NCBI RefSeq assembly: GCF_038396755.1 | Contig: NZ_CP149822.1 | Coordinates: forward strand, 3,906,001-3,970,000 | Source: Chitinophaga pollutisoli | GTDB lineage: Bacteria; Bacteroidota; Bacteroidia; Chitinophagales; Chitinophagaceae | Direction: 5' to 3' | DNA: 64,000 bases | Shown: positions 3,549-63,857 of the stretch, in pieces | Layout: each line of letters opens with the position of its first letter | How positions within the stretch are numbered: the first letter of the stretch is position 1 | Made by a program: the position numbers and the translations under genes | Notes under the pieces: generated by a model | Databases searched by the model: none | Told to the model about the DNA's origin: nothing | Seen by the model: the letters and a program-made list of their open reading frames with translations, nothing else

Positions 3549-4399
3549 TTTTTAGGGCTGTATTTGAATTTGAGAATATCGGCCGTATGGTCTTCATCGC
3601 CTTCGTTGGAAATATACATATCTCCGTTTGGCGCGAAGGTGATGCCTTCGGGCTGAGAGAAATGTTTCCTGGGCAGGCGGTGCGTTTCCTGTACGTTACC
3701 CTGAAGGTCGGTAATGACGAGCAGTTCATTCACCGAAGCCACGATATATACCCTGTTTTCGATGGGATGGACAGCTGCGCCGGAGGGCCTGAAGTGCTTG
3801 GAAGGACCTTCTTTCAGTCCGGGGATGTTGTCATTGAAAAAGCGCCAGGCGGGTTCGGGGTTCCAGGTCATCGAATCGGGGCTGAACGTGAATACGCTGG
3901 TCTGCTTTTGTCCTTTATCCACTTCGCAGGTTTTGCAGATGGCCACGATCCGGTTGGACTGGATATCATAATAAGCCGCTTCGAACTCGCGTTTCCAGTT
4001 GTGCGGGAAATGCGCGAGGGTGGAAGAGATGGTGTCGGTGAACATCCCGTCTATCCTGTACATGCTGCCGTTGCTTTTGAGCACGAACCAATCTTTGCCG
4101 GTGAACACGGTTTCTTCATAATCGCCGCCTTTCCCGAATTTCCAGGAGGGATAAGGAGCGGTAGCGCGGAGGTTGACCTGGAAGAGTTTTCCCTGTTCGT
4201 CGTTGTTGGCGATGAAGTGGGCTTCGTCGCGGTGGAACACGATGCCGGAGATTTCCTGCAACGACTCCCGGACGCGGAACCGTTCGTATTGTTCGAGCCG
4301 GTAGCCTTCCGGCGAGGTTTGGAGCCGTGCTTCATTTTGCCCCGCCAACTGGCAGGAAATGAGCATGATTGCAGGCAGCAGACAAGGAAACATCTTCAT
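3545..4399 (-). CDS. SdiA-regulated-family beta-propeller lipoprotein
   Basis: This 284-residue protein begins with a lipoprotein signal (LISC, Cys16), so it should be membrane-anchored outside the cytoplasm. The body shows repeated propeller-type motifs (EISGIVFH, FEAAYYD, SGAAVHP, QPEGITFAPNGDMYISNEG) typical of the SdiA-regulated family, whose members are six-bladed propellers of poorly known function. Its stop codon overlaps the TTG start of the downstream metallophosphoesterase, so the two are almost certainly co-translated and may act together on a surface phosphoester. The family assignment is fairly secure; no enzymatic role can be read from the sequence. Confidence 0.85.
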   Translation of the reverse strand: MKMFPCLLPAIMLISCQLAGQNEARLQTSPEGYRLEQYERFRVRESLQEISGIVFHRDEAHFIANNDEQGKLFQVNLRATAPYPSWKFGKGGDYEETVFTGKDWFVLKSNGSMYRIDGMFTDTISSTLAHFPHNWKREFEAAYYDIQSNRIVAICKTCEVDKGQKQTSVFTFSPDSMTWNPEPAWRFFNDNIPGLKEGPSKHFRPSGAAVHPIENRVYIVASVNELLVITDLQGNVQETHRLPRKHFSQPEGITFAPNGDMYISNEGDEDHTADILKFKYSPKN

Positions 4400-4470
4400 A
4401 AGCCATTCTTTATAGGATAAAATTAACGCAAAAAATGCCGTAATTTGGAATATAGTAAATACACCACCAG

Positions 4471-45509: not shown

Positions 45510-45578
45510 ATGCCTGAGCGTCGAAAAACAGTCCACTCTGATAGAAAGTTTATTGAATCACTCAAACTATGCAAATCT

Positions 45579-48947: not shown

Positions 48948-48974
48948 GGTTGGCATCACTTAAAAAAACTGAAC

Positions 48975-50555
48975 ATGAAAAAGAGCTTATTCATATTAAC
49001 AGCGATCGCGGTGGGCAGCATCTTCTCGGCTTGTACCAAAGACTTCCTCGACCGGGAACCGCTGGATGCATATAACGACGAAAACATCTGGAGGAACGAA
49101 AACGACCTCCTTGCCGCTCTGAACGGCTGCTACAAAGGGTGGGAAGATATCTATAACATCATGTACATGGATTGTGCGACTGACAACGGGTACAACCAAT
49201 GGCCCTGGGAAGGTTACACCAGCATCGGCAACGGTACGGTGACGGCTTCCGATGTGGATGCCGCCAACCGTTGGAACTACACCACCATCCAGAAGTGCAA
49301 CACCTTCCTCGAGAATGCGGACAAGGCGGAAGCCGACGCGGCGAAGAAGGATCGTATGAAAGCGGAAGCCCGATTTCTGCGCGCGTATCAGTATTTCACT
49401 TTGACACAGCTATACGGCAACGTTCCGCTGGTAACAAAAACGGTTACCATGGCGGAAGCGAACACAATCAAACAAACCCCCATCGCGGAGGTGCGCCAGT
49501 TTATCCTGGATGAACTGGCGGCCATCGCGCCCCAGCTCGACGTGTCGTATTCCGGCAGCGATGTCGGCCGCATCACCCGTGGCGCCGCCCTCGCACTGCG
49601 CGCCCGTCTCAATCTTTACATGAAGAAATGGGACGACGCCATCACCGACAGCCGCGCCGTGATGCAACTCGGCTACAAGCTCGACACCAGCTACGCCAAT
49701 GTTTTCCGCATCAAATTTGAAAATAATACCGAAGTAATCCTCGACGTGCAGTACATGGAAAACATCGTGCCCAACGAATGGCTGGGCATCATGCCTTCGC
49801 GCGGTTATGGTGGATGGGGTTCCGTAGTGCCTTCGCAGGCGCTGGTAGACGCTTATGAAATGGCAAATGGCAAACCGATCACCGATCCTGCTTCCGGTTA
49901 TAACCCCGACGATCCGTACACCAACCGCGACCCGCGCCTGCAGGCCAGCATCGTTACCCCCGGCCAGCGCTACAACGGCAGGATTTACGATCCGCTGGAC
50001 CCGGAATCCGAAGATTATTACCTGGGCGACAACAACTCCAAAACCGGCTACCTCTATAAAAAGTGGACCTCCGATTTCAGCGATTACGCCAATATCTGGA
50101 ACACCGGCCTCAACGCCATCGTGATCCGTTACCCCGAAGTGCTGCTTACCTACGCCGAAGCGATGATCGAGAAAGGTACGATCGACAACACGGTATATGA
50201 CGCGATCGACGAAGTGCGCAAACGCGCGAAGATGCCCGTTACCGACCGCACCGTGTATACCGGCCAGGTGAAAATGCGCGAACTGGTACGCCGCGAAAGA
50301 AGGGTGGAACTGGCGCTGGAAGGCCTTCGCTGGAACGACATTAAACGCTGGGAGATCGGGCCCGCTGTGCGCAACGGCAAACTGTTCGGGATGCGCACCG
50401 GCTCGGTGGACCCTGTAACGGGCAAACTCACACTCACCGGCGATCATGTGGAAGTGGAAAACCGTCTTTTCGACGCTTCGAAGAATTATGTGTGGCCCGT
50501 TCCGCAAAAAGAGCTGGATGTGAACAAGCACCTTGACCAGAATCCGAATTATTGA
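48975..50555 (+). CDS. SusD/RagB-family nutrient-binding outer-membrane lipoprotein
   Basis: 526 residues with a lipoprotein signal (FSAC, Cys20). Typical SusD features: DFLDREPLDAYNDENIWRNE at the N-terminus, AEARFLRAYQYFTLTQLYGNVPLVT, TRGAALALRARLNLYMKKWDDAI (TPR part), IRYPEVLLTYAEAMIE and RRERRVELALEGLRWNDIKRW near the C-terminus, ending in NKHLDQNPNY. It binds the ligand at the cell surface with the preceding SusC. No enzyme gene sits inside this operon, so the substrate cannot be deduced. A strong terminator follows. Confidence 0.96.
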   Translation: MKKSLFILTAIAVGSIFSACTKDFLDREPLDAYNDENIWRNENDLLAALNGCYKGWEDIYNIMYMDCATDNGYNQWPWEGYTSIGNGTVTASDVDAANRWNYTTIQKCNTFLENADKAEADAAKKDRMKAEARFLRAYQYFTLTQLYGNVPLVTKTVTMAEANTIKQTPIAEVRQFILDELAAIAPQLDVSYSGSDVGRITRGAALALRARLNLYMKKWDDAITDSRAVMQLGYKLDTSYANVFRIKFENNTEVILDVQYMENIVPNEWLGIMPSRGYGGWGSVVPSQALVDAYEMANGKPITDPASGYNPDDPYTNRDPRLQASIVTPGQRYNGRIYDPLDPESEDYYLGDNNSKTGYLYKKWTSDFSDYANIWNTGLNAIVIRYPEVLLTYAEAMIEKGTIDNTVYDAIDEVRKRAKMPVTDRTVYTGQVKMRELVRRERRVELALEGLRWNDIKRWEIGPAVRNGKLFGMRTGSVDPVTGKLTLTGDHVEVENRLFDASKNYVWPVPQKELDVNKHLDQNPNY

Positions 50556-50590
50556 TAAACCCCGTTAGTTGCTACTCTTTGTTACATGTA

Positions 50591-50617
50591 AGCCCGCCGG
50601 AACCGGCGGGTTTTTTT
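50591..50617 (+). terminator. Terminator after second SusC/SusD operon
   Basis: A palindromic GC stem (50593-50600 with 50603-50610) flanked by AG/TT pairing and a T7 run at 50611-50617, 36 bases past the SusD stop. Confidence 0.9.
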
Positions 50618-50660
50618 ATGCCGCCGGTACATGAAAACAGCCGTATGTCCGCACGATAAG

Positions 50661-50689
50661 TTGACATCGGGCCGCATTTCCTATATTTA
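50661..50689 (+). promoter_or_regulatory. Probable Bacteroidota-type promoter of the CBM9-like gene
   Basis: TTG at 50661-50663 and TATATTTA at 50682-50689 (seven of eight positions of TAnnTTTG) are spaced 18 bases. The ATG at 50695 follows the -7 box by only 5 bases, so either the message is leaderless or a later start is used. Confidence 0.45.
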
Positions 50690-50694
50690 GTCCA

Positions 50695-51765
50695 ATGCAG
50701 CGTTTCCAACAATATTTCATGTGGATGGCGGCCGCCCTGGCGATGGCGCCCCTGTTGTTGCGCGGCCAAAGCTTCACGGAGCAGTCGCGCGTATTCACCG
50801 ATACACCCCGCCATTATGTTTGCCAGCGTGCTACCATGCCGCTTGTGATCGACGGCCGCGATACCGAGAATGCCTGGCAACAGGCGGAATGGACGGATGA
50901 TTTCACCGACATCGAAGGCGCGAAGAAGCCCGCGCCGTTGTTCCGTACGCGGGTGAAAATGTTATGGGATGATGAAAAACTATACGTTTTCGCCGAACTG
51001 AAGGAACCGCACGTTTGGGCGACACTCCGGCAGGCCGATACTATTATTTATTACGACAATGATTTCGAAATGTTCCTCGACCCGCCGGGCAACTCGCGGG
51101 AATATTTCGAGATAGAAGTGAACGCCCATAACACGGTGATGGACCTGTTCATGCCGCGCGCTTACCGTGCGGGCGGAAAGGCCATGCTGTCGTGGGATGT
51201 GAAAGGACTGCAAACTGCGGTGCATGTGAAAGGAACGCTGAATAACCCCCGCGACAAGGATACTTCCTGGACGGTGGAAATGGCGATCCCTTTCCGCGCG
51301 CTCGCCGCTTATCATACCCGTTCCATTCCCCGCAACGGCGACACCTGGCGCGTGAATTTCTCGCGGGTGCAGTGGCAGTATGAGATCGAAGGAAATGCCT
51401 ACCGCAAACGCCCGAAAACGCCGGAGTACAATTGGGTATGGTCGCCGCAGGGGATAGTAGACATGCACGCCCCCGAGCGCTGGGGCTTCCTGCAATTCTC
51501 GGCGCAGCCGGCGGGGGAGCGGGTTGCGTACAAAACACCGGAATACGTGGAAGCGGAAAAGTTCCTTTGGGAATTGTATTACCGCCAACATCAATACCGC
51601 CGCGCCAACGGCAAATACACAGCGGATTTGACCGCGCTGAAACTGGATAAGCATTCATTTGATTTTAATATGGAAGCCACCGGGCGGCAGTTCTCCGCTG
51701 TCATCCGGCAGGGCAGCAGAACTATCATCATCGATCACGAAGGAAAAATCATCCGATATGAATAA
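50695..51765 (+). CDS. Secreted CBM9-like carbohydrate-binding protein
   Basis: 356 residues with a signal sequence (about 24 residues, ending LLLRGQ). Residues 45-265 match the carbohydrate-binding family 9-like domain used widely in Bacteroidota: LVIDGRDTENAWQQAEWTDDF, VKMLWDDEKLYVFAELKEPHVW, YYDNDFEMFLDPPG, FEIEVNAHNTVMDLFM and WTVEMAIPFRAL. The C-terminal ~70 residues are charged and unassigned. It probably binds sugars in the periplasm or on the surface. Its stop (51763-51765) overlaps the next gene by 8 bases, so the two products are coupled. Confidence 0.88.
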   Translation: MQRFQQYFMWMAAALAMAPLLLRGQSFTEQSRVFTDTPRHYVCQRATMPLVIDGRDTENAWQQAEWTDDFTDIEGAKKPAPLFRTRVKMLWDDEKLYVFAELKEPHVWATLRQADTIIYYDNDFEMFLDPPGNSREYFEIEVNAHNTVMDLFMPRAYRAGGKAMLSWDVKGLQTAVHVKGTLNNPRDKDTSWTVEMAIPFRALAAYHTRSIPRNGDTWRVNFSRVQWQYEIEGNAYRKRPKTPEYNWVWSPQGIVDMHAPERWGFLQFSAQPAGERVAYKTPEYVEAEKFLWELYYRQHQYRRANGKYTADLTALKLDKHSFDFNMEATGRQFSAVIRQGSRTIIIDHEGKIIRYE

Positions 51766-52840
51766 ACGTCATTTTCTGAAGTCGCTCGGGCTGGGAAGCC
51801 TCGCGCTCGCAACACCGTCGCTGGCCATGGCTGGCATGCAGGGGGAAGCTAAAAAGATCGCCGGGCCGGTGCGCCACCGTATCTGGATCAACCCCAGCGC
51901 CAAAGATACCGACGCCGAACTGAAGAAACGTTACGCGGATTACCGTGCCGCGGGTATCGGGGTGATTTATTTCGAGGAAGACAGCGAGCGCCACTTCCGC
52001 GCCGCCAAAGCCGCCGGCATAGAAGCGCACCGCTGGTTCTGGACGATGAACCGCAACGAAAAGGAGCTCCGCGAACAGCATCCCGAACTGTTTTCCGTGA
52101 ACCGGAAAGGCGAATCCTGCGCTACCAAACCGCCGTATGTGGGGTATTACCGCTTTCTCTGCCCGAACCAGCCCGGCACCTTGCAGTACCTGAAATCCAA
52201 AGCGGAAGAACAGGTGGCGAAGGATTATATCGACGGGCTGCATCTCGATTATGTCCGCTTCGTGGACGTGATCCTGCCCGTGAATTTGTGGGATAACTAT
52301 AAAATTGATCAGTCGAAGGAATTGCCGGAGTACGACTTCTGCTACTGCAAAACCTGCCGCGATAAGTATGCCGGTATTTACGGGAAAGATCCGCTGGAAA
52401 TGGAGCATCCCGATCAAAGCCCTTCCTGGCGCAAGTTCCGGTACGACAGTATCACGCACATCGTCCGCAATTTATCGGAGGTGGCCCACGCGAAAAAGAA
52501 ACCCATTACGGCGGCGGTATTTCCCACGCCGGAGATCGCGAAGCGGATTGTGCGGCAGGATTGGGTAAACTGGCCCCTCGACGCCGTGTGTCCCATGATC
52601 TATCACGGTTTCTACCGCGAAGGTGTGCAATGGATCGGCGACGCGGTGGCGGAAGGGGTGAACGCCCTGAACGGGAAATTCCCGCTATACGCCGGCCTCT
52701 ACCTGCCGGATTTCAACGGCAATCACGACGATATCCGCAAAGCCATCCGCCTCGCGCTCGACAACGGCGCGGCCGGCGCTTCCATTTTCGGATCCGTAAC
52801 GCCGCAGCTCCTCGGCATCCTCCGCGAAACGGCGGGTTAA
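51758..52840 (+). CDS. Secreted family-10-like glycoside hydrolase (GHL10-type)
   Basis: From ATG 51758 the 360-residue protein starts with an export signal (MNKRHFLKSLGLGSLALATP, Tat-like but with only KR). The body resembles the GHL10 TIM-barrel group: HRIWINPSAKDT, AAGIGVIYFEEDSERHF, AHRWFWTMNRNEKELREQHP, DGLHLDYVRFVD, YCKTCRDKYAG and DAVCPMIYHGFYREGVQW. LDYVRF is the conserved strand at the active-site mouth. It should act on oligosaccharides or bacterial wall glycans; no substrate is known. It overlaps the CBM9-like gene by 8 bases. Confidence 0.8.
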   Translation: MNKRHFLKSLGLGSLALATPSLAMAGMQGEAKKIAGPVRHRIWINPSAKDTDAELKKRYADYRAAGIGVIYFEEDSERHFRAAKAAGIEAHRWFWTMNRNEKELREQHPELFSVNRKGESCATKPPYVGYYRFLCPNQPGTLQYLKSKAEEQVAKDYIDGLHLDYVRFVDVILPVNLWDNYKIDQSKELPEYDFCYCKTCRDKYAGIYGKDPLEMEHPDQSPSWRKFRYDSITHIVRNLSEVAHAKKKPITAAVFPTPEIAKRIVRQDWVNWPLDAVCPMIYHGFYREGVQWIGDAVAEGVNALNGKFPLYAGLYLPDFNGNHDDIRKAIRLALDNGAAGASIFGSVTPQLLGILRETAG

Positions 52841-52857
52841 CGTCGCTTACATCTCAT

Positions 52858-53517
52858 TTACGGCGCCGGAGTCACCGCTTCCAGCTGCGTGAGCGCATCG
52901 CGGAACTGCCGGTTGCTCACCGAATCGAGGCGGTTGGCCGGGTTCGAAAGAAAAGTGTGGAGCGCCTGGCGATACTCTTCCCGGAAGGATTCGTTGGCAG
53001 GACTGGCAGATAGCTGGTTGCGGGCCTTGTCTACCAGCTCGCGGTTGGCGGCAATGATGCGCATCTTGCCGAAAGTAGATTCGTCGGCCATGATCACGAT
53101 GTTTTCTTCGTAACCAGGAACGTAGCGCGTAACAAAGACTTGTCCGGCCGGAGGGATGAGCACTTCATTCCGGATGGGCCAGATAGGTGCCGACATGCTG
53201 GTGAAGGAGGTTTTCACATCTTTCCCCTGCGCTTTGGCAATCACCGCGTATTCGAAGATATATTGATCGTTGAGCGTGGAATTGGTTTGCGTGGCCTGGA
53301 TCACGACGGCGGTTCCCGGAGTGCCCCAGGCCTGGAGGAACCAGGCGTTCAGCATGGAAGCCGTGAAGATATTGGCCATCGCCAAAAGGAATCCCGGAAC
53401 GAGGAGCCACAAACGGCGGGTAAGCACGGCGATGCCGGCGAAGATGGCGAGAATGATAAAGAAAGACCAGGCCGGATGCTGGCTGAGAAAAAACAAAACT
53501 GCAGATATGGCTTTCAT
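52858..53517 (-). CDS. Membrane protein of unknown function
   Basis: 219 residues. Residues 15-33 and 37-58 are hydrophobic helices (AWSFFIILAIFAGIAVL, LWLLVPGFLLAMANIFTASM). The rest is a soluble part rich in beta strands (GTAVVIQATQTNSTLNDQYI, EVLIPPAGQVFVTRYVPGYE) and ends in a helical stretch (RQALHTFLSNPANRLD). No family was recognised. It is read against its neighbours, converging with the GHL10 gene (17-base gap) and divergent from the oxidoreductase gene. Confidence 0.75.
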   Translation of the reverse strand: MKAISAVLFFLSQHPAWSFFIILAIFAGIAVLTRRLWLLVPGFLLAMANIFTASMLNAWFLQAWGTPGTAVVIQATQTNSTLNDQYIFEYAVIAKAQGKDVKTSFTSMSAPIWPIRNEVLIPPAGQVFVTRYVPGYEENIVIMADESTFGKMRIIAANRELVDKARNQLSASPANESFREEYRQALHTFLSNPANRLDSVSNRQFRDALTQLEAVTPAP

Positions 53518-53652
53518 TTTTGTACGGTTTTTCGGTCAGTGAAGGACGCATTCCCCCGCGCCCGTGTAATTTTTTCTCCTTTCATGCAAAAACTGTGCGA
53601 ATACTGGATTTTATTTCTGTATCTTGTTTTTGCAATCGAATGAAATTCTGAT

Positions 53653-55083
53653 ATGATGAACAACGACTATTCCCGGAGGAGGTTCCTCCAACAGGCCATG
53701 CTGGCCTCTGCAGCACTTGCCACGCCCGGTTTTTTGATGGCCCGCGGCATGGCAGCCCCCCGGAAGATCGGGGCCAACGAAAAAGTGAACCTGGCGGTGA
53801 TCGGAATCGGTAACCGCGGCGGTGAAATCATCCGTGAATTGTATAAAACAGGCCTCTGCAACATCGTAGCACTTTGCGACGTGGATATGGGCGCTCCCCA
53901 TACCCTGGAAATTATGAAAATGTTCCCGGACGTTCCCAGATTCCAGGATTTCCGTAAGATGTTCGACAAGATGGGCAAGCAAATCGATGCGGTGTCTGTC
54001 GGCGTCCCCGACTTCGCGCATTTCCCCATCACCATGATGGCTATCGGTCTCGGCATCCACGTATATGTGGAAAAACCGATGGCGCGTACTTTCCAGGAAG
54101 TGGAACTGATGATGAAAGCTGCCGCGAAAAACCCGAAAGTTGTTACCCAAATGGGCAACCAGGGCCACTCCGAAGCCAATTACTTCCAGTTCAAAGCCTG
54201 GACGGAAGCGGGCATCATCAAAGACGTGACCAACATCACCGCGCACATGAACTCGCCCCGCCGCTGGCACGGGTGGGATACGAATATCAAATCCTTCCCG
54301 AAAGCGGAACCCAAACCCGACACCCTCGACTGGGATGTTTGGCAGATGCAGACCAAAGGACATGAATATAATAAGGACTTCGTCAACGGCCAATGGCGTT
54401 GCTGGTTCGACTTTGGTATGGGCGCCCTCGGCGACTGGGGCGCGCACATCCTCGACACCGCGCATCAGTTCCTCGACCTGGGCCTGCCCACGGAAGTAAA
54501 CCCCGTGAAGCTCACCGGGCATAATAATTTCTTCTACCCGACTTCAACGACCCTTTCCTTTAAATTCCCCGAGCGCCGGCAAATGCCCGCGGTGGAAATA
54601 ATGTGGTACGACGGCGTTGATAACCTGCCCCCGATCCCGGCCGGCTACGGTGTTTCCGGCCTCGATCCGAACATCCCGCCGCCGAGCACCGGCGCCATCA
54701 AACCCGCGAAACTGAACCCGGGCAAGATCATCTACAGCAAAGACCTCACCTTCAAAGGCGGCTCCCACGCTTCCACGCTCTCCATCATCCCCGAAGAGAA
54801 AGCCAAAGCCATGGCGGGCAAGCTCCCCGAAGTGCAGAAGACGCCTTCCAACCACTACGCCAACTTCCTGCTGGCGTGCAAAGGCCAGGAAAAAGCGCGT
54901 TCTTCTTTCGATATCGCCGGGCCGCTCAGCCAGGTGTTCTGCCTAGGTGTGCTCGCGCAATGGACTGGCCGCAAGATCGAGTTCGACCGCGAGAAAAAGA
55001 TTATCACCAACGACAAAAAAGCCAACCAGCTGCTCGTGGGCCCGCCCCCGCGCAAAGGTTGGGAACAATACTACAAAGTGTAA
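53653..55083 (+). CDS. Tat-exported Gfo/Idh/MocA-family oxidoreductase
   Basis: 476 residues with a twin-arginine signal (SRRRFLQQAMLASAALATPG). The Rossmann domain shows NLAVIGIGNRGG and VALCDVDMG; VEKPM is the signature Lys-containing loop; the C-terminal half has GALGDWGAHILDTAHQFLDLG and the large insertion typical of exported Bacteroidota members, some related to GH109 N-acetylgalactosaminidases that use NAD as a cofactor. It folds with its cofactor in the cytoplasm before export and oxidises or epimerises a sugar, or cleaves a glycoside, in the periplasm. A hairpin follows. Confidence 0.92.
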   Translation: MMNNDYSRRRFLQQAMLASAALATPGFLMARGMAAPRKIGANEKVNLAVIGIGNRGGEIIRELYKTGLCNIVALCDVDMGAPHTLEIMKMFPDVPRFQDFRKMFDKMGKQIDAVSVGVPDFAHFPITMMAIGLGIHVYVEKPMARTFQEVELMMKAAAKNPKVVTQMGNQGHSEANYFQFKAWTEAGIIKDVTNITAHMNSPRRWHGWDTNIKSFPKAEPKPDTLDWDVWQMQTKGHEYNKDFVNGQWRCWFDFGMGALGDWGAHILDTAHQFLDLGLPTEVNPVKLTGHNNFFYPTSTTLSFKFPERRQMPAVEIMWYDGVDNLPPIPAGYGVSGLDPNIPPPSTGAIKPAKLNPGKIIYSKDLTFKGGSHASTLSIIPEEKAKAMAGKLPEVQKTPSNHYANFLLACKGQEKARSSFDIAGPLSQVFCLGVLAQWTGRKIEFDREKKIITNDKKANQLLVGPPPRKGWEQYYKV

Positions 55084-55088
55084 CGCGC

Positions 55089-55116
55089 AGAGAGACGGCC
55101 CCCGGGCCGTCTCTCT
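55089..55116 (+). terminator. Hairpin terminator after the oxidoreductase gene
   Basis: A 12-bp stem (55089-55100 with 55105-55116) and CCCG loop starts 6 bases after the stop. It lacks a clear T-run, so it is a weaker terminator call. A second small hairpin (55174-55179 with 55186-55191) followed by CTTTT lies before the next gene. Confidence 0.6.
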
Positions 55117-55238
55117 CATTTCCGGGGCTCCGTATTCAAACGAGTAAGGCACCGGCGCAGGGGAGCCTGCCACACTACTGTAATGAGTAGTCTTTTGAGG
55201 CGTGCCAATGCGCTAATTTCCCGGTTGCAAAAACCGAT

Positions 55239-56575
55239 ATGCAGCTGCGGAGAATTTTGACATGGATAGGGGCCTTCGTGGCTTTGACGGCAGTAGCGGC
55301 CTGGGCGGTGCCATTGCTGAACGGCGGCATAGTGGCGGAACCTTTGCGCCACCGGGGCAAGGTGCATATCCGGAAAGACGGCGGGAAGTACACGCTCATC
55401 CGCAACGGCAAACCGTTTTTTGTGCAAGGCGCCTCCGGCCGGGGGACCTCGCCTTCCTCGCCGCATCCGGCGGAAATACTGTGAGAACTTACGACACCAT
55501 CGGCCTCGCGGCCTTCCTCGACGAAGCGCAGCGCCTCGGCATCGCGGTGATCGCAGGGTTGCCGGTGCCTTCGAGCGCGTATGAAAAATTCTTTTACCGT
55601 AATGGAAAGAAGACGGATGCTTTATTGGAAAGCATCCGCAGCGCGGTACTGCGGTACCGGCATCATCCCGCGCTACTCATGTGGTGCCTGGGGAACGAGC
55701 CGGTGATGACGTGGAAGCCCGGGCACAAGGGGTTTTATTCCACCTTCAACCGCCTGCTCGCCACAATACACCAGCTCGATCCGGAACACCCCGTCACCAC
55801 CACCATTCCCAATTTCAATATTGTCCAGATCTGGATGACGCGTCAAAAAGTGCCCGGCCTCGACCTGATTTCTTTCAATACATTCGGGCAGCTGAACAAG
55901 CTGAGCGCCCGGCTGGAGCGGTTTTCCCGTATTTGGGACGGGCCTTTCCTCGTGGCGGAATGGGGTACTCTCGGGCCCTGGGAATCCGACATCACAGCCT
56001 GGCAGGCGCCCGTCGAAAATACAAGTAGCAAGAAGGCCGAACAGTTGCGGAAGATGCACGCCGCTGATCTTCCCCTTCACAACCCCCGCTGCCTCGGCGC
56101 CCTCGCTTTCTACTGGGGCCACCGCCAGGAAGCCACCGGCACCTGGTTCAGCCTGTTCTCAGAATCCGGGCAGCCTACCGAATCAGTAGCCGCGCTCCGC
56201 GAAGTATGGGGAAAGCCCACGCACAACGACGCCTGGCCCAAAGTGAATTACATGCTGCTTGGCGGCAAAGGCGCCCGCGATAATATTTTACTTGCGTCCG
56301 GCGCGCAGTATACGGCCTCGCTGCTCCTGGATACCAGCAACACTGCGCTCATCGAAACCTTGCGGTGGCGCGTGGCGCAGGAAGACTGGTACCAATATCC
56401 CGGGCGGAGGAATCGTCCGCAGCCCCTGCTGGATACGGTTATCCGTGCGGTAGACGGGCTGGAGCTGGCTTTCGCGGTGCCGCGGCGGGGAGGTCCGTAC
56501 CGGATTTTTGTGGAAGTCAATGCCCGGAACGGAAACATCGCCAACGCCAACACGCCATTTTATGTTGTTGAATAA
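55239..56575 (+). pseudogene. Clan A (GH2/GH5-like) glycoside hydrolase, frame broken by one base
   Basis: The N-terminal part (from 55239) is a membrane or signal anchor (ILTWIGAFVALTAVAAW) and the start of a TIM barrel (IRKDGGKYTLIRNGKPFFVQ). The rest lies in another frame to 56575: GGNTVRTYDTIGLAAF, LMWCLGNEPVMTW (acid/base Glu154, corrected numbering), LDLISFNTFGQL and PFLVAEWGTLGPW (nucleophile Glu241), then a C-terminal beta domain (FAVPRRGGPYRIFVEV ... ANANTPFYV). One extra G in the G5 run at 55441-55445 restores a 445-residue protein (GASGRGDLAFL). Both catalytic Glu are present, so if intact it is an active glycosidase. It lies 3 bases before the glycosyltransferase gene and resembles that protein's C-terminal domain. 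Confidence 0.85.
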
Positions 56576-56578
56576 CCG

Positions 56579-57787
56579 ATGGGGGATTTGAAACAAGCGC
56601 CACAACCCACCCGGAGCGATATGCTCTCGCTGCGCCTGATGATCGCCATCGGTACGCTGGGACTCTGCTTTTTCCTGTTTTGCCTGCTCAACCCCCTTCA
56701 CATCGGGCATCCTGTGTTGTACTGGATGCTGGTGAGCGCTACGGTATTCTCCTGCCTGCGGGTGCTGCACGAATGGTATCATTACCTGTTCATCTCCATT
56801 CCCACACCTAAATCCGGGAATAAGCGGTTCACCGTCGATATCCTGACGACCTTCTGTCCGGGGGAGCCTTACGAAATGATCGTGGAAACCCTCGAAGCCA
56901 TGCAGGCCGTCACCTACCCGCATACCTCCTGGCTCTGCGATGAAGCCGGTGACCCCTACCTGAAAGAAATCTGCCGTAAACTCGGCGTGCGGCACATAAC
57001 GCGCAACCACCGCACCAACGCCAAGGCAGGTAACATCAATAACGCACTGCAATACGCCACCGGAGAACTTTGCGTGGTGCTCGACCCGGATCATATACCG
57101 GCGCCGAATCTCCTCGACCCCATCATTCCTTTCTTCAACGACGAAAAAATTGGTTATGTACAGATTGTGCAGGCGTATTACAACCTGGGCGACAGCCTGA
57201 TCGCCAAAGGCGCGGCGCAGCAAACATTCCATTTCTACGGGCCGATGATGATGACCATGAACCGCTATGGAACCGTGCCCGCCATCGGGGCCAACTGCAC
57301 GTTCAGACGCAGCGCGCTGGACGCCATCGGTGGGCATGCGGCGGGACTGGCGGAAGATATGCACACTGCGATGCAGCTGCACGCCAAAGGCTGGAAGTCC
57401 GCTTACCTGCCCGCGGTGCTCACGGAAGGAAGGGTGCCTTCGACACTTTCTGCCTATTACAAGCAACAACTGAAGTGGTCGCGCGGCTGCCTGGAATTGT
57501 TGTTCGTCACCTATCCGAAACTGTTTAAAAACTTCACCTGGGCGCAACGCTTCCATTACGGCACGGCTCCGCTGCATTATTTATCCGGCCTGATTTTCCT
57601 GTTGAACTTCATCGTGCCGGTGGTATCGCTTTCGATGGGGATTATTCCGTTTAAGATGGATCTCGTCTTATTTGGATTGGCGGGATTGCCTTTCCTGGTG
57701 AGTATCCTGGCTATCCGGCATTTTGTGCAGCAATGGGTAATGGGCCGGGGGAAAGGGGGAATCATGTGCTGGGGGGCTTCCTGCTGA
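56579..57787 (+). CDS. Membrane family 2 glycosyltransferase (cellulose synthase-like), first half of a frame-split fusion
   Basis: Two N-terminal membrane helices (21-40, 45-62) precede the catalytic domain: TFCPGEPYEMI, CDEAGDPY (Asp121, Asp125), NHRTNAKAGNINNAL, VVLDPDH (Asp169, Asp171), AEDMHTAM (Asp260) and QQLKW (296-300), the D,D,D,Q(Q/R)xxW-type set of processive polysaccharide synthases. Then helices near 325-348 and 356-376. The frame ends at 57787 after junk residues, but the family's remaining helices continue in the next frame. One extra G in the G5 run at 57747-57751 joins this to the ORF ending at 60333 (1251 residues overall). It should polymerise a UDP- or GDP-sugar at the inner membrane. 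Confidence 0.88.
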   Translation: MGDLKQAPQPTRSDMLSLRLMIAIGTLGLCFFLFCLLNPLHIGHPVLYWMLVSATVFSCLRVLHEWYHYLFISIPTPKSGNKRFTVDILTTFCPGEPYEMIVETLEAMQAVTYPHTSWLCDEAGDPYLKEICRKLGVRHITRNHRTNAKAGNINNALQYATGELCVVLDPDHIPAPNLLDPIIPFFNDEKIGYVQIVQAYYNLGDSLIAKGAAQQTFHFYGPMMMTMNRYGTVPAIGANCTFRRSALDAIGGHAAGLAEDMHTAMQLHAKGWKSAYLPAVLTEGRVPSTLSAYYKQQLKWSRGCLELLFVTYPKLFKNFTWAQRFHYGTAPLHYLSGLIFLLNFIVPVVSLSMGIIPFKMDLVLFGLAGLPFLVSILAIRHFVQQWVMGRGKGGIMCWGASC

Positions 57788-60333
57788 TCGGGACGTGGTG
57801 GGTGCACATCCTGGGATTGGTGTATACGGTCATCCGGAAGAAAGTACCCTACATCCCCACGCCGAAAGACGATCGTGAAAAAGACAACTGGCTGCTCAAC
57901 CTGCCGAATATCGTGGTGGCAGCGTGTTCGCTTGCGGCGATCGTGTTTGGCTTGTACATCGACTGGAACCCTTACACCTGGATCATGGCGGGCATCGCGG
58001 GGATTAACTTCGCGGTGATGGTGTTCAATATCGCCATCAGCCGGCAGAAAGACGTGCAGGAGGTACGGGCGCGGTTCAGGGTGCTGCGCAATAGTTTTTC
58101 GTATTACAGAATGCTGAAACAATATTTCTGGAACTTCCGGCACGGCATTTACGCCGGGCTGCGGCAGTTCGCTTTCCCGATCATGTTGCTGATGGCCATT
58201 TCGACGCTGTATTTGTTCAGCAGCATGCGCCGTGGCAATGTTTCCGGAGGGTTGGGAGAACAGCGGGAGGAAGTTTTTTATACCGGTGTTTTCCAGCCTT
58301 CGGAACCGGGCGGCATTACGGAGAAAGCAGGGTGGGAAGATTTTCAGCGGCGCTTTGCCGTACATGCGGATATCGTTTCGGTGTACATTCCCTGGGGTGA
58401 CGGGCCCCGGTCGGAAGTGCCGCTGCAACTGGCGGAAGCGATATACAGAAACGGCTCGTCGCCCATGATCACCTGGGAGCCCTGGGCTTCGGGGTTTACT
58501 TTTTCCGCCAACGATCCCGAGCTCAGCCGCGAAAGGAAGGTCATGGCCCGGATCGTGGCCGGCGTGTTCGACGGTTATGTGAGGAAATTCGCGCGGCAGG
58601 TGAAGGCGCTCAACCGGCCGGTGTTCCTGCGCTTCGCGCATGAGGCCGATAATCCTGGTTATCCCTGGTCTGCCACCGGTGGGAATACACCCGAAGAAAT
58701 GAAAAACGCCTGGCGGCGTGTGCATGCCATTTTCCTCTCCGAACGCGCCTACAATGCCGTGTGGGTCTGGAACCCCTGGAAGCCCGAAGCTGTGGAGCCC
58801 TACTTCCCGGGCCGCAGGTACGTAGATTGGATCGGCGTAACGATGCTCAACTATGATTCGCTGGCCGCGGAAAAGGAATACGCATTCGCGGAATTGTATG
58901 CTCCCTTCCACCGCAAACCCATCTTCCGCTCCGGCCTCCCCGTAATGGTGGCGGAAGGCGGATCGTTGCGGACCGCCCACCAGCGTAAATGGATGGAGGA
59001 CGCCGCACGCGCCATTTCCACGAGCTGCCGGGAGGTGCAGGCCTTCGTGGTTTTCCATTCCGCCTTCGACCGGAATGTACCGCCCGGCGCCGGCGTGCCC
59101 ATGCTCGACTGGCGGATTGCCGACGCGGGAAATTTCTTCAGGGTCACCGGCGGAATTAAAAAAACAGGTGCCGCTCCCCTGAAGCAGTTGCGCTACATCA
59201 CGCCGCCGGCGCCTGCGGTACGCCCCCGGTGGACCGACACGCTGCGCGGCATGGAGTACCAGAAAGGCGGCAACTGGTTCCGCAACCTGCATGCGCTTAC
59301 GCGCGCGGAGGTGATACAGGATTTCCATGCGATGCGGGAAACGGGCGTTAATACCGTACGCCGCTACGGTCCCGGCGCATACGACCGCAACGTACTGGCC
59401 GCTGCGCGGGAATCGTCGCTGGGGTTGCATTACGGGTTCTGGCTCCCGCCCGTGTCCGACGCGGTTGCCGGGGAGGCGATGTTGCGGGAGAAGGCTGCGG
59501 AAATCGTTGCGGAAGTGAAGCGGTTGAGGCTTCATCCCGAAATCAAAGCCTGGAGTATTGCCAACACGTCTTTCAAATTCCTGCAATACCGTTTCGTGAA
59601 ACCCGGTTACCTCTACCAGCAAAAAGCCTATACGCAATGGCTGCGGCAGCTGGTACAGGAAATCCGGAAGGCGGATGCTTCCCGCCCGGTGACCATCGAT
59701 GTGGACGCAAACAGCCAGATAGCGGGGCTTTTGCAATACCTGTACGATGAAATTCCGCAGGTTGCTGCGTTTGGCGTGGTACTGCCGCCCGACGGCGAAG
59801 GGCTCGTGCAGCTGGCAGATGTAACGGCGCCGTATTTTATCAGCCGCGCACCGGTAAGTTTATATGCTACGGCAGGACCAACGCGCAACGGGGTTTTCAT
59901 TACTTCCTGGCAAGATGAAGAAGCCACCAACCGCATAACTTTCGACGGGCTGTTGGATACCGACGGCCGCCGGAAACCGGACTGGCACCGGTTGCACGCG
60001 ATCTGGAAAGGCGGCGGGGAAAAGGAGTCCGTGCCGGAGATCAGCATCCTGCGGCCCGCCATAGCAGCGCGGGAAGGCAAAACGCTGGAATACCGCGCGC
60101 TGCTCCGGGAAAACGGGAACTGGCAATATGCTTCTGAGGGTGATATTGCTTTTGAGTGGAGCCTCGTGCGGCTGGACCGGCAAGGGAAAGCCATCCGGCG
60201 GGACAAATTGGGCAATGGCGCGGTGATCCGTGTGGAGATACCTTTCAACCCGGCATCGTACCGGTTGCATGTGTCTGCAGCAAGGGGAGGTGATGTGTCT
60301 GTAGCGATGGCAACGCTCAACACGCCCTTGTGA
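57733..60333 (+). CDS. Second half of the synthase fusion: membrane helices, GH26-like domain and degenerate GH-like domain
   Basis: In corrected numbering, helices at about 399-419, 443-460, 469-487 and 529-548 complete the transferase membrane part. A GH26-like TIM barrel follows (about 565-865) with VSVYIPWGDGP, PMITWEPWASG, FLRFAHEADN (His688, Glu689, acid/base) and VMVAEGGS (Glu793, nucleophile). The last ~370 residues form another barrel (GMEYQKGGNWFRNL, FHAMRETGVNTVRRYGPGAY, KAWSIANTS) where the usual NE pair is Asn996-Thr997 and no nucleophile Glu is visible, so it is probably a binding domain; a C-terminal beta part (ASYRLHVSAARGG) resembles that of the preceding hydrolase. The Met at 57733 is unlikely to be a real start because it falls inside the transferase. 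Confidence 0.85.
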   Translation: MGNGPGERGNHVLGGFLLIGTWWVHILGLVYTVIRKKVPYIPTPKDDREKDNWLLNLPNIVVAACSLAAIVFGLYIDWNPYTWIMAGIAGINFAVMVFNIAISRQKDVQEVRARFRVLRNSFSYYRMLKQYFWNFRHGIYAGLRQFAFPIMLLMAISTLYLFSSMRRGNVSGGLGEQREEVFYTGVFQPSEPGGITEKAGWEDFQRRFAVHADIVSVYIPWGDGPRSEVPLQLAEAIYRNGSSPMITWEPWASGFTFSANDPELSRERKVMARIVAGVFDGYVRKFARQVKALNRPVFLRFAHEADNPGYPWSATGGNTPEEMKNAWRRVHAIFLSERAYNAVWVWNPWKPEAVEPYFPGRRYVDWIGVTMLNYDSLAAEKEYAFAELYAPFHRKPIFRSGLPVMVAEGGSLRTAHQRKWMEDAARAISTSCREVQAFVVFHSAFDRNVPPGAGVPMLDWRIADAGNFFRVTGGIKKTGAAPLKQLRYITPPAPAVRPRWTDTLRGMEYQKGGNWFRNLHALTRAEVIQDFHAMRETGVNTVRRYGPGAYDRNVLAAARESSLGLHYGFWLPPVSDAVAGEAMLREKAAEIVAEVKRLRLHPEIKAWSIANTSFKFLQYRFVKPGYLYQQKAYTQWLRQLVQEIRKADASRPVTIDVDANSQIAGLLQYLYDEIPQVAAFGVVLPPDGEGLVQLADVTAPYFISRAPVSLYATAGPTRNGVFITSWQDEEATNRITFDGLLDTDGRRKPDWHRLHAIWKGGGEKESVPEISILRPAIAAREGKTLEYRALLRENGNWQYASEGDIAFEWSLVRLDRQGKAIRRDKLGNGAVIRVEIPFNPASYRLHVSAARGGDVSVAMATLNTPL

Positions 60334-60335
60334 GC

Positions 60336-60563
60336 TCAGCTCAGGCGTGCCGCGTAATTCTTTTTCACGAATTGATTGATGAACGTGTTTAACCCGAGGC
60401 CCTTCCGGGCGAGGGATTTCATTTCTTCCACCGGCGCAACGCCCGGCACTATGTAATTGTAATGATACGCTGTACCGTCTTTAAAGTGGACATTGATATA
60501 CCGCTCGTCAATTTCATAATACCGGACGCCGGAAACGCCGCTGAGATTTTTGTACGGCTGCAT
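60336..60563 (-). CDS. KTSC-domain small protein
   Basis: 75 residues from ATG 60563, a typical KTSC length: NLSGVSGVRYYEIDERYINV, KDGTAYHYNYI and KSLARKGLGLNTFINQFVKKNY. KTSC domains are small and of unknown biochemical role, sometimes linked to RNA or lysyl-tRNA synthetase partners. An alternative GTG start at 60626 would overlap the stop of the NTF2-like gene as GTGA and add 21 residues with no homology character; coupling makes that possible. Confidence 0.8.
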   Translation of the reverse strand: MQPYKNLSGVSGVRYYEIDERYINVHFKDGTAYHYNYIVPGVAPVEEMKSLARKGLGLNTFINQFVKKNYAARLS

Positions 60564-60622
60564 GAAGACGTGGTTTTGGTGTGAATAATAGATACCGGGA
60601 GGGAATGGAAGGGTGAAAAAAT

Positions 60623-61060
60623 TCACTTTCCGTCGAGCCGGGTTACATGCGCCGCGATGGCTATCCAGCGGCCGTCGCGCTTTTCGTAGACATCCATATA
60701 GTTGTTTTTGACGGTTGTTTCTTTCCCGTTTTGGGTCATGGTGAATTCCACCACGGCCACCACGATCCCGATATTTCCTTTCACGGTGATCTCCACATTG
60801 TCGATCATGGCGGAGGTAATGGGCATGGCGGGTTTCGCTACATTTTTGATGAGGTCTTTTTTGCTGATGCGCGCGCCGGCAGCGTTGATCATCACGAGAT
60901 CATCGGCCACGATGCGGTGGATGGTGGCGGTATCTTTTTCAGGGTACGCCTGGATCCAGTCGGCATTGTGGTTGCGGAGGGCGTTGTGGTCTGCGTCTTG
61001 CGCACGGGCGGATAAAACGGAGAGCAGTGAAAAGGCGGCAAGCAGGATGGGGAGTTGCAT
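60623..61060 (-). CDS. Exported SnoaL/NTF2-like (DUF4440) protein
   Basis: 145 residues with a signal peptide (LLSVLSARAQ). The remaining ~120 residues have the cone-shaped NTF2-like fold: NHNADWIQAYPEKDTATIHR, IVADDLVMINAAGARISKKDL, VEITVKGNIGIVVAVVEFTM and NYMDVYEKRDGRWIAIAAH. Such proteins bind or isomerise small molecules, or are simple dimer scaffolds; no catalytic residues can be assigned. Probably in one transcript with the KTSC gene. Confidence 0.88.
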   Translation of the reverse strand: MQLPILLAAFSLLSVLSARAQDADHNALRNHNADWIQAYPEKDTATIHRIVADDLVMINAAGARISKKDLIKNVAKPAMPITSAMIDNVEITVKGNIGIVVAVVEFTMTQNGKETTVKNNYMDVYEKRDGRWIAIAAHVTRLDGK

Positions 61061-61188
61061 AACAGGGGATTTAACTGGAATTATTCACTGAATGTACGAA
61101 ATTCCCCTGCATCCGGGAGGTATTTTTCTTGATAAAATAGAATTTAAATAACTGATTATCAAAGCATTAAAACCCTTCATCAAATTAG

Positions 61189-61219
61189 TTGACAAAAGCA
61201 ACTATATTTTGTAGATTTG
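61189..61219 (+). promoter_or_regulatory. Bacteroidota-type promoter of the GNAT gene
   Basis: TTG at 61189-61191 and TAGATTTG at 61212-61219, an exact TAnnTTTG box, with 20 bases between. The GNAT ATG at 61227 is 7 bases past the box, so transcription would start at or next to the start codon, giving a leaderless message. Confidence 0.6.
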
Positions 61220-61226
61220 AAGCACC

Positions 61227-61700
61227 ATGCAAGCAGCCATTACTTTCCAAACCGCCACTACGCCGGAACAATACCAATCCGCTTGTGGTATTTTCCGTGC
61301 TTACGCCCGGTCGCTGGATTTTGACTTGCAATTCCAGGGTTTTGAGGCGGAACTGGAGCATATCCATGAGCAATACGGCGCCCCGGATGGCGCACTCATC
61401 CTGGCTTACAACGGCAACCGGGTAGTGGGTTGCATCGCGGTGCGGAAATTTGCCGAAGGGGAATCCGAACTGAAAAGGATGTTCGTGCTCCCGGAGTTCC
61501 GCGGCCACCGGCTAGGCGAAACCCTGCTCCAGCAAGCCCTCGGGGCCGCCAAAGCCCTGGGCTACCGCAATGTCAAACTGGATACCCTGCCCAATATGAC
61601 CTCCGCCATCAAACTCTACGAAGCGCATGGCTTCAAAAAAATCGCGCCTTACAGGTTCAATCCCATGCAAGGCGCGATCTTTATGGAAGCGGATCTGTAA
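61227..61700 (+). CDS. GNAT-family N-acetyltransferase
   Basis: 157 residues with the GNAT core: LILAYNGNRVVGCIAVRKF, SELKRMFVLPEFRGHRLGETLLQQAL (acetyl-CoA pyrophosphate loop RGHRLG) and NVKLDTLPNMTSAIKLYEAHGFKKI. It transfers an acetyl group from acetyl-CoA to an unknown amine in the cytoplasm. It converges with the GH92 gene (6-base gap) and has an own promoter upstream. Confidence 0.93.
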   Translation: MQAAITFQTATTPEQYQSACGIFRAYARSLDFDLQFQGFEAELEHIHEQYGAPDGALILAYNGNRVVGCIAVRKFAEGESELKRMFVLPEFRGHRLGETLLQQALGAAKALGYRNVKLDTLPNMTSAIKLYEAHGFKKIAPYRFNPMQGAIFMEADL

Positions 61701-61706
61701 ACTTTT

Positions 61707-63857
61707 TTATTTCGTTTCGACCACTATTTCCCCTCCCAGCTGGAAAAGGCTATGCGGCACAAACCATCCCTGCTGCAACTTCCCGTTCACCCGAACGCCC
61801 GCCAGGTCGCGGCTTTTGCCCTGCCTGCGGATCGTGAGCCATTTGCCGTTTTCCGCTTTCCAGCGCACTTCGTCGAATAAGGGCACGGTGGCCAGGTATT
61901 CCGGATCGGTGGCGGAAAATGTGTATAACCCCGCCGCGCAGAAAACATACCACGCCGACATTTCCCCCGCGTCATCCATCCCGCAAAGCGCATTGCCAAA
62001 CTCACCGATGCCGTACAGGTGGTTCAGGATCGTATCGATGACTTTTTGCGACTTCTCCGGTTTATTGATGAAGTAATATGAGAACGGCGCCTCATGGTCG
62101 GGCTGGTTGCCGTGGCAATACTGACCGATCATCGATTCCACGTTCCGCGCGATGTGATTCGGGTTCCAGGGAACGGTGAACAGCGAGTCCAGCTTGGATT
62201 CGAAACCCGCCGGGCCACCGTATAATTCAATCAGCCCGGGCATATCGTGCGGGGCGTAAAACGAAACCTGCCAGGCGTTCGCTTCGCGGTACATGTATTC
62301 GTAATACGGATATTGCGGGTCGAAGGGCGTGATCCAATCGCCGTTTTCCAGTCGCCCGCGCATGAACCGCGTGGAAGGATCGAACATGTTGCGGTAATTT
62401 TGCGAGCGTTGCATAAGCGTGCGATAGTTGGCCGAATCGCCCAGTGCGCGGGCCAGCTGCGCCAGGGAATAATCGTCGTACGCGTATTCCAGCGTTTTGG
62501 AAACACCCGCTTTGGCCTTGGTTTCCACGTGCGGTTTTTCAATATGCGGATCGGAGATAAACCCTTTCTCGATATATTCCTTCACATGCGGACGGGCGCC
62601 GGGTTCCATGTTCGCATTCTTCAGCAGGATTTCATACGTTCCCTTCACATCGAAATCGTTAATACCGCGCAAATAAGCACCCGCAATGGTGGAAGCGCCG
62701 TGGTCGCCATGGAAGAAAGTGGGGATGAAACCGCGTTTGTCGCCCACGTCTTTCATCGACCTGATCACATCCAGCGCCACATCAGGCGCAAGCAATCCGA
62801 GCAGTACATCTTTATTGCGATATGTATCCCAGAGTGAAGGTTCAGTGTAATACCGGAAGCCTTTATTGTCTTTCTGGCGTTTGGCGTCGGTGAAATCTCC
62901 GTTCACATCGCTGCGCAGGGCGGGCCAGAGGAAGGAGCGGTAGAGGCTGGAGTAGAAAAGGCTGCGTTGTTTTTCGGTACCGCCTTTCACTTCCACTTTC
63001 GACAGCAGCTTTTCCCATTCCGCTTTGGCGGCGGCCCGGATGGCCGCGAAGGATTTGCCGCCGATTTCCTTGTCCAGGTTCTGTTTGGCATTTTCAGCGC
63101 TCACGAACGAAATCCCGATTTTCATTTCCACGGGTTTCTTGCCGTCTTCTAGCCACACCATTGCATGGCCGGAGCGTTTGCCCTCTTCTGATTTGTCAAG
63201 TTTTTTGATGTTCGTATTGAGGACGGCATAGAAATAAATACGCTCGCCCGTCTGCTGGTAGCCTTGCAGCACGTTCTTGCCCGTTTGCTCGATTCTCCAG
63301 TCGCTCACGCGGTTGTTGGATTTGGCGAGATCGAACAGGATGCGGCGGTTGGCGGGATGTTGATAGTCGTATTGATGGAAGCCCGCGCGGAGGGTGGAGG
63401 TGAGTTTCACATCCACGTTGTAATCGCTGAGGTATACCTGGTAAAACCCGGGTTCGGCGGATTCGCGCTGGTGGGAATAGCGCGACCCCGTGGCGGGGGC
63501 GCTTCCGGAAACGGGCAGCACGGGAATGTTGCAGAGGTTCCAGTGGCCTTTGTTGGTGTGGGTGAATGAGAGAATGACGGAGTCCTCGTATTCGTATCCC
63601 GCGCCGGAGCCGTATTCGGTCATCGGGCTGAGCTGCACCATGGCGTTGGGCAGCGAACTGCCGGGAAAGGTGAGCCCGGCCCAGGAACGCCAGCCTTCCG
63701 GCAGGTGGTAACCTACAATGGCGGAGTCGGTCAGCGGTTCGGTGCCGAGGAAAGTGTTCACGTACTTTGTAAAATTCCCGGCGGATTGTCCATATCCTTC
63801 ATTTGCCTGCATCATCAGCATGCCGGCAAGGCAGATCATGAGCCTTTTCATCATCAT
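61707..63857 (-). CDS. Secreted GH92 family alpha-mannosidase
   Basis: 716 residues with a signal peptide (ends EGYGQ). The N-terminal beta-sandwich (FTKYVNTFLGTEP, GLTFPGSSLPNAMVQLSP, SFTHTNKGHWNLCN) is joined to the (alpha/alpha)6 barrel with YTEPSLWDTYRNKDVLLGLL, EANAWQVSFYAPHDM, CHGNQPDHEAPFSYYF and CGMDDAGEMSAWYVF, the usual GH92 motifs that hold calcium and the acid and base. GH92 enzymes are calcium-dependent exo-alpha-mannosidases acting on N-glycans or mannans. The region 63858-64000 upstream has no gene that can be supported. Confidence 0.95.
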   Translation of the reverse strand: MMMKRLMICLAGMLMMQANEGYGQSAGNFTKYVNTFLGTEPLTDSAIVGYHLPEGWRSWAGLTFPGSSLPNAMVQLSPMTEYGSGAGYEYEDSVILSFTHTNKGHWNLCNIPVLPVSGSAPATGSRYSHQRESAEPGFYQVYLSDYNVDVKLTSTLRAGFHQYDYQHPANRRILFDLAKSNNRVSDWRIEQTGKNVLQGYQQTGERIYFYAVLNTNIKKLDKSEEGKRSGHAMVWLEDGKKPVEMKIGISFVSAENAKQNLDKEIGGKSFAAIRAAAKAEWEKLLSKVEVKGGTEKQRSLFYSSLYRSFLWPALRSDVNGDFTDAKRQKDNKGFRYYTEPSLWDTYRNKDVLLGLLAPDVALDVIRSMKDVGDKRGFIPTFFHGDHGASTIAGAYLRGINDFDVKGTYEILLKNANMEPGARPHVKEYIEKGFISDPHIEKPHVETKAKAGVSKTLEYAYDDYSLAQLARALGDSANYRTLMQRSQNYRNMFDPSTRFMRGRLENGDWITPFDPQYPYYEYMYREANAWQVSFYAPHDMPGLIELYGGPAGFESKLDSLFTVPWNPNHIARNVESMIGQYCHGNQPDHEAPFSYYFINKPEKSQKVIDTILNHLYGIGEFGNALCGMDDAGEMSAWYVFCAAGLYTFSATDPEYLATVPLFDEVRWKAENGKWLTIRRQGKSRDLAGVRVNGKLQQGWFVPHSLFQLGGEIVVETK

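Follow-up and report, generated by a model that had tools for sequence, protein, structure and literature searches.

The stretch analysed here (the window) comprises 64,000 nucleotides of the Chitinophaga pollutisoli genome (contig NZ_CP149822.1, positions 3,906,001 to 3,970,000). At positions 55239-60333, two adjacent genes are located on the forward strand. Gene A encodes a free glycosidase of GH158 type, and gene B a synthase of glycosyltransferase family 2 (GT2) which continues into a GH26 domain and a third, degenerate barrel. The stop codon of gene A ends at 56575 and gene B starts at 56579; domain order, strand and this 3-base gap had been proposed in an initial annotation and were confirmed. 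The following features were assigned, in which L numbers denote loci of relatives and ORF stands for open reading frame:

55239-56575, + strand: gene A, free GH158-type glycosidase, in two frames here
55239-55448, + strand: N-terminal membrane anchor or signal part of gene A (aligns with residues 1-71 of the L005 and L006 homologues)
55441-55447, + strand: frameshift site of gene A, where one base of a G run is missing (DNA alignment with L005 and L006)
55442-56575, + strand: GH158 barrel and immunoglobulin-like (Ig-like) domain of gene A (codons of the barrel ORF to 56572; Pfam and PDB matches)
56579-60333, + strand: gene B, synthase with GH26 and third barrel, in two frames here
56579-57787, + strand: GT2 synthase part with two N-terminal helices, GT2 domain and later helices (Pfam GT2 families); the ORF stops early by frameshift
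57733-60333, + strand: remainder of the synthase with helices, GH26 and third barrel, 866 amino acids (ORF list; one ORF with GT2 in relatives)
57747-57759, + strand: frameshift site of gene B, flanked by two G runs, with one base fewer than in L004, L005 and L006
57844-57867, + strand: gating-loop motif VPYIPTPK, counterpart of BcsA FxVTxK
58168-58224, + strand: last hydrophobic helix, after a positive loop (hydropathy and charge, mean of 64 homologues)
58258-59169, + strand: GH26 domain (Pfam PF02156, 35.2 bits; cut-off 20.2)
59191-60330, + strand: third barrel and Ig-like tail, a GH158 paralogue with T and R at the catalytic positions

At the level of sequence, the fusion of GT2, GH26 and barrel is real in relatives. 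One ORF containing all three was present at 77 of 80 loci (78 ORFs; missing at L059, L075 and L080), the locus set being the best 80 of 158 relatives. Four of the fused ORFs are cut by contig ends (L004, L046, L063 and L077) and the barrel of L082 is split over two ORFs. The relatives were found with words from the transmembrane, GH26 and barrel region of the window; since the query words came from this same region, the set is biased toward the fused architecture. Hence, the proposal that synthesis and cleavage reside on one polypeptide holds for relatives, but not as one open frame in the window. The initial annotation had also considered that transferase and hydrolase might always be separate genes in homologues. 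Such separate genes exist at L102, L104 and L105 but are not the rule, so this objection fails.

The loci are recorded as Bacteroidota and Balneolia or Balneolaceae. In the protein database, at least 1210 matches at E ≤ 1e-3 were obtained among 8000 candidates scored, and the names of the best 120 of these are mostly glycosyltransferase (family 2) or cellulose-synthase-like, with one 'beta-mannanase'. A less biased view of the distribution was obtained from a draw of 395 Bacteroidota genomes, 15 of which contain a match at E ≤ 1e-80. The same domain order, for which a genome search had been suggested, was found in full in 8 of them. In a draw of 117 genomes of the family, 5 matched. The cassette is distributed patchily across Bacteroidota.

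For the conservation analyses, the alignments comprised 64 of the 73 listed fused references (alignment A1), the window with 60 of the 72 listed barrel stretches (A2) and 28 of the 77 free genes (A3). The GT2 part matches cellulose synthase chains (E 8.4e-36) and contains the motifs DxD, ED and QQLKW in the window. In the 78 fused ORFs, the DxD aspartates are retained in 77 (one gap), ED and Q-KW in all. QQ[LI]KW occurs in 19 of 19 Bacteroidota GT2 sequences, whereas the two BcsA-type sequences compared have QxxRW. Via the L005 homologue (C. deserti, 1251 amino acids), the VPYIPTPK segment aligns to the gating loop FNVTAKG of Escherichia coli BcsA, and its T and K are invariant in the 64 aligned homologues. 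Averaged over the latter, eight hydrophobic peaks were detected in the synthase; the transferase motifs and the many membrane helices described initially were both found again. Between gating loop and GH26, three more hydrophobic helices are present, and the loop before the last one carries a charge of +3.2. The gating loop of BcsA is cytosolic. Because three helices follow this loop and the last is preceded by a positive loop, homology and charge would place GH26 on the periplasmic side of the membrane, in agreement with the suggestion that it lies outside the cytoplasm. Identity with cellulose synthase was rejected: the L005 protein scores 157 bits in the TIGR03030 equivalog model (cut-off 699.1), no PilZ domain was detected in a Pfam scan of the synthase, and no BcsB, BcsC or BcsZ gene was present in the scanned neighbourhood of the cassette.

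The two catalytic glutamates of GH26 (acid/base and nucleophile) read in the initial annotation were confirmed; their codons are located at 58642-58644 and 58954-58956, and both residues are kept in all 78 fused ORFs. The closest solved structure is Endoglucanase H (E 1.4e-17), which we take to be the mixed-linkage glucanase CtLic26A, followed by a beta-1,3-xylanase and, behind it, mannanases. With this ranking, a beta-mannanase reading of the domain is not favoured, and the beta-mannan part of the original polymer suggestion is weak, the partner being a GH158 enzyme.

For gene A, the assignment to clan A stands and is narrowed to a GH158-like enzyme, but the gene is frameshifted near 55441-55447. 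The best PDB chain is 9oro, named GH158(Pro) (E 2e-49), and the next is 6pal (E 2e-39), which carries the entry title 'Uncharacterized protein' and is presumably BuGH158. The alignment of the L005 homologue to GH158 chains covers both the barrel and the Ig-like domain. A Pfam scan returned a GH2_C-type barrel match, yet a GH2-type galactosidase or glucuronidase was rejected as the GH158 chains score far higher. Both catalytic glutamates are present in gene A (N-E as acid/base, E as nucleophile), and they are kept in 76 (one gap) and 77 of 77 homologues, respectively. According to the available text of PMC7157763, the catalytic positions of BuGH158 are N136, E137 and E220, and the family is characterised as beta-1,3-glucanase. 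By crude rules, the N-termini of the 77 free GH158 proteins were sorted into lipobox (27), other hydrophobic (42) and neither or partial end (8). In 80 cases including the window, the free gene is located upstream of the fused gene on the same strand in 70, on the opposite strand in 6, downstream in 1 and outside the sequence covered in 3. The median gap for the 70 upstream genes is -4 bases; the two genes are linked.

The third barrel, described initially as degenerate, was refined to a paralogue of the free GH158 (hhalign over 317 columns, with the Ig-like tail covered: probability 99.8, E 1.4e-27). It is dead in the window, since T and R occupy both catalytic positions. Among 61 barrels, both glutamates are kept in 6 and one or both are lost in 55. 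In a tree of 39 hand-picked sequences, barrels and free GH158 proteins form separate clades (support 100). Dead barrels constitute a single clade (support 100) on a long branch, and the six with both glutamates are short-branched and weakly ordered (43, 54). The simplest reading is that an active GH158 was fused and lost its activity once, while the free copy stayed active. The distances of barrels and free partners correlate (r = 0.89, 17 loci, 0 of 2000 permutations), of which shared ancestry alone would explain much.

Four arrangements were distinguished in relatives. In arrangement A, a GT2-GH26-barrel protein is accompanied by a free GH158. Arrangement B (L100, L101) has a GT2-barrel protein, a free GH158 and, as a separate protein, a double GH26; arrangement C (L095-L099) has GT2 with a degenerate GH26 only, the free GH158 being on the other strand. 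In arrangement D (L102, L104, L105), GT2 is unfused, and its neighbours are a GH26 protein and a TPR protein whose C-terminus resembles a beta-barrel. The 15 genomes of the phylum sample comprise 8 of type A, 2 of B, 4 of C and 1 of D, where five of the eight A types (G080, G103, G122, G171, G336) were judged from match coverage and the open frame alone. In the family sample, the genome of the window (G000) and G399 are of type A, G424 is fused in the same order, its GH26 being degenerate (L103), and G462 and G480 are of type D. The double-GH26 proteins of about 560 residues (L100 3472-5148, - strand; L101 7991-9676, + strand) have no Pfam match. By eye, their first half is apparently dead and the second has both glutamates; a protein family of this size was present in 12 of 81 gene sets. 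The D-type TPR/barrel proteins are encoded at 3384-5003 in L102, 6467-8374 (- strand) in L104 and 2887-4431 (- strand) in L105. Their TPR was assigned by Pfam, with weak matches to the PgaA/BcsC-type TPR for L104 and L105, and the barrel was judged by eye. Type D probably represents a synthase-dependent export system of Bacteroidota that has yet to be characterised. In a GT2 tree of 22 sequences, likewise hand-picked, types A to D form one clade (98), within which D (100) and A-C (93) are clades; B is nested in A (100), the C sequences do not group together and the inner order is weak.

Upstream of the cassette (45510-55083), the window contains genes for SusC, a likely SusD (by eye), a CBM9 protein, a GHL10 glycosidase and a Gfo/Idh/MocA oxidoreductase. 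The order oxidoreductase, cassette, GH92 is retained in L005 and L006. Wider operon conservation was not found: beyond the two genes, no neighbour family appears in more than 12 of the 81 gene sets. Sugar-nucleotide, uxs1, uxe or DUF995 genes were absent from the seven neighbouring genes scanned (50695-63857). The same genome (6.08 Mb) harbours a second cassette at about 5.938-5.943 Mb (G000:C1, locus L109), which is 45% identical to the first over the GH26/barrel part. In Chitinophaga japonensis (locus L007), two complete cassettes are arranged in tandem.

The two ORFs of gene B (56579-57787 and 57733-60333) are in different frames and overlap by 55 bases; anchor (55239-55448) and barrel (55442-56572) of gene A are in different frames as well. 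The second cassette shows the same kind of defect, each of its genes lacking one base at a G/C run; none of the four cassette genes found in this genome is intact. As controls, seven flanking genes were compared with relatives, four in the window and three by the second copy (one cut by the locus end), and all are in one frame; this comparison leaves out an L075 ORF match at 60599-61129 on the strand opposite to the likely gene. For SusC, 53 of 56 genes are full length; of the remaining three, two begin near profile position 86 and one ends at 788, the 56 scored of 182 candidates perhaps being the best ones. The ratio of non-synonymous to synonymous substitutions (dN/dS) on either side of the breaks is 0.04-0.15 (GH92 control 0.04). 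As it is low on both sides, the genes were under selection until very recently.

We consider it probable that the breaks arose by error in sequencing or assembly and that the living strain has intact genes. Each break concerns one base at a G/C run, a common error of long reads, purifying selection is seen on both sides, and the relatives have a single ORF. A frameshift-ridden assembly also exists for another complete genome of the genus: L059 (Chitinophaga sp. E66, CP079103.1) shows many frameshifts in the cassette region, and the 18.6 kb covered contain no G/C run longer than five, as expected of uncorrected long reads. On the other hand, the coding statistics of the present genome resemble those of the reference loci and not those of L059, and G/C runs of six are nearly as common as in relatives (9.4-9.8 versus 13.2 per 100 kb). 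A genome-wide frameshift-prone assembly is not supported by coding statistics, SusC control and run counts; errors limited to G/C runs are possible. That real one-base deletions inactivate both copies, by loss under selection or by slippage-type on/off switching, is a serious possibility, though we put it somewhat below even. All four cassette genes carry one deletion, set against the flanking and SusC genes (Fisher's exact test, p = 1.0e-5 against 1 of 56, 7.2e-5 against 3 of 56 and 0.003 against 0 of 7), and 14 G/C runs of six or more sit well inside long ORFs. Opposed to this are the position of all four breaks at G/C runs, the selection of SusC candidates and the runs of seven, which number 0 in the window, 1.9 per 100 kb in the genome samples and 2.8 in relatives; given the dN/dS values, any loss would be very recent. 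Programmed frameshifting between the overlapping ORFs of gene B is highly improbable and was rejected, because the gene is read in one frame at 77 of the 80 loci; in addition, the two copies are broken at different positions, and the free genes have breaks too.

The explanation we favour, with roughly even confidence, is that the two genes form a Bacteroidota module which makes and processes a beta-glycan. The GT2 part would polymerise a sugar nucleotide in the cytoplasm and, in the manner of BcsA, pass the chain through a membrane channel of its own. An additional helix would bring GH26 and the dead GH158 domain to the periplasm, where they would meet the emerging chain. GH26 may cut or transglycosylate it, the dead GH158 most likely holds it, and the free membrane-anchored GH158, encoded just upstream, would complete the trimming. 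The polymer probably contains beta-1,3-glucosyl links and might be linear, mixed-linkage or cyclic. The product is probably short and periplasmic, or it exits by another route. We lean to the former because the D-type channel protein turned up in all 3 unfused genomes (one being the query's own) and in none of 9 fused ones searched.

Several observations weigh against this explanation. Neither cassette gene in the window is open from end to end, and GH26 lacks one or both glutamates in 5 of 5 C-type proteins and in L103. A glycoside hydrolase family does not fix the substrate, and GH26 covers mannanases and xylanases. If the hydrophobic peak at residue 406 (L005) were a full helix instead of lying at the interface, a helix count that starts with the N-terminus in the cytosol would assign GH26 to the cytoplasm, opposed only by the gating-loop and charge arguments. 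Finally, the absence of the D-type TPR protein applies to the nine fused genomes searched, including G000, with six B- and C-type genomes outside this set, and an unrelated channel would escape such a search.

It is rather unlikely that the module instead produces an exported surface polysaccharide similar to the arabinose-containing polysaccharide (APS) of Sinorhizobium meliloti, not a plain glucan, with the hydrolases keeping the secreted chain soluble or setting its length. The S. meliloti GH26 (locus L120) and the GH26 of the window share 30% identity (E 7e-21), and the unfused relatives combine GT2 and GH26 with a TPR/outer-membrane-type protein. Nevertheless, the neighbouring genes scanned include neither sugar-nucleotide nor DUF995 genes, the TPR protein does not occur in the fused genomes searched, and the window GT2 is no nearer to the S. 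meliloti synthase ApsS (21-24% identity) than to BcsA (20-24%). The free partner, moreover, belongs to GH158, a beta-1,3-glucanase family in the available text of PMC7157763.

Extending the explanation of a beta-glycan module, fused Bacteroidota might have evolved, independently of Pseudomonas, a synthase which makes and remodels (perhaps cyclises) a periplasmic beta-1,3-rich glucan, a counterpart of the osmoregulated periplasmic glucans. It would have arisen from a D-like GT2, GH26 and channel by fusion and channel loss, the tethered GH158 dying into a chain holder and the free copy staying active. This scenario is speculative and we would give it a low probability. An osmoregulated periplasmic glucan system in Bacteroidetes was not found among the papers listed in the literature search, judged from titles and abstract openings. 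The module would tie GH26 and GH158, usually read as degradative, to synthesis, and Bacteroidota genes of these families are readily counted as glycan-utilisation genes. Within the synthase lineage, hydrolases occur separately, partly fused or fully fused, and barrels both live and dead, so that comparison offers a test of what the tethered domain does. The module also provides a concrete candidate for an uncharacterised Bacteroidota glucan.

No description of the GT2-GH26-GH158 architecture was found in the literature, judged from titles and abstracts and with subscription papers mostly outside, which fits the initial view that the system is little described. Likewise, no literature on NdvC together with GH17 was found. 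With BcsA, the synthase shares the GT2 fold, the motifs, the gating loop and helices after the transferase, but it differs by the missing PilZ domain, the absence of BcsB, BcsC and BcsZ from the scanned neighbourhood, QQLKW in place of QxxRW and a score far below the TIGR03030 cut-off. Endoglucanase H is the nearest solved GH26, but it is degradative and not tethered to a synthase. BuGH158 (available text of PMC7157763) and GH158(Pro) (9oro) belong to the same family as the free partner and have the same N-E and E residues; BuGH158, however, serves glucan degradation in a utilisation locus, whereas the GH158 gene of the window is paired with that of a synthase.

Among gene pairs, ApsS/ApsE of S. 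meliloti comes closest, a GT2 synthase that has a GH26 protein as its neighbour in the APS operon (available text of PMC7902896). Locus L120 of this species contains six genes in the order published there, and the names ApsS and ApsE were assigned by that gene order. In contrast to the window, the APS system, as far as described in this source, has separate proteins, UDP-pentose and DUF995 genes in the operon and no GH158. The region at about 15379-17650 of L123 (S. meliloti ABS7 pSymB) follows a gene for a periplasmic adaptor, is the expected place of a BgsA-type synthase and carries no annotation; its GT2 motifs lie in a late-starting ORF, and the gene may be broken in the record or the ORF misread.

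The nearest architecture is that of the Pseudomonas GH17-GT2 'Orphan'/NdvB cyclic beta-glucan synthases. In the accessible part of PMC10237404, they are described as fused synthases, so the initial statement that known systems use separate hydrolases does not hold universally. They have in common with the present system a BcsA-like GT2 fused to a glycosidase-type barrel with a periplasmic location (predicted here), no PilZ, and proposed synthesis and processing on one polypeptide. A GT2-glycosidase fusion of this kind is present in relatives and broken by frameshift here. Differences are found in the domains: the Pseudomonas proteins have one N-terminal GH17, while here GH26 and a dead GH158 are C-terminal and a separate, active-looking GH158 is added. 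Coupling of GT2 and glycosidase thus has precedents in fused form in the Pseudomonas GH17-GT2 proteins and as separate proteins in ApsS/ApsE of Sinorhizobium.

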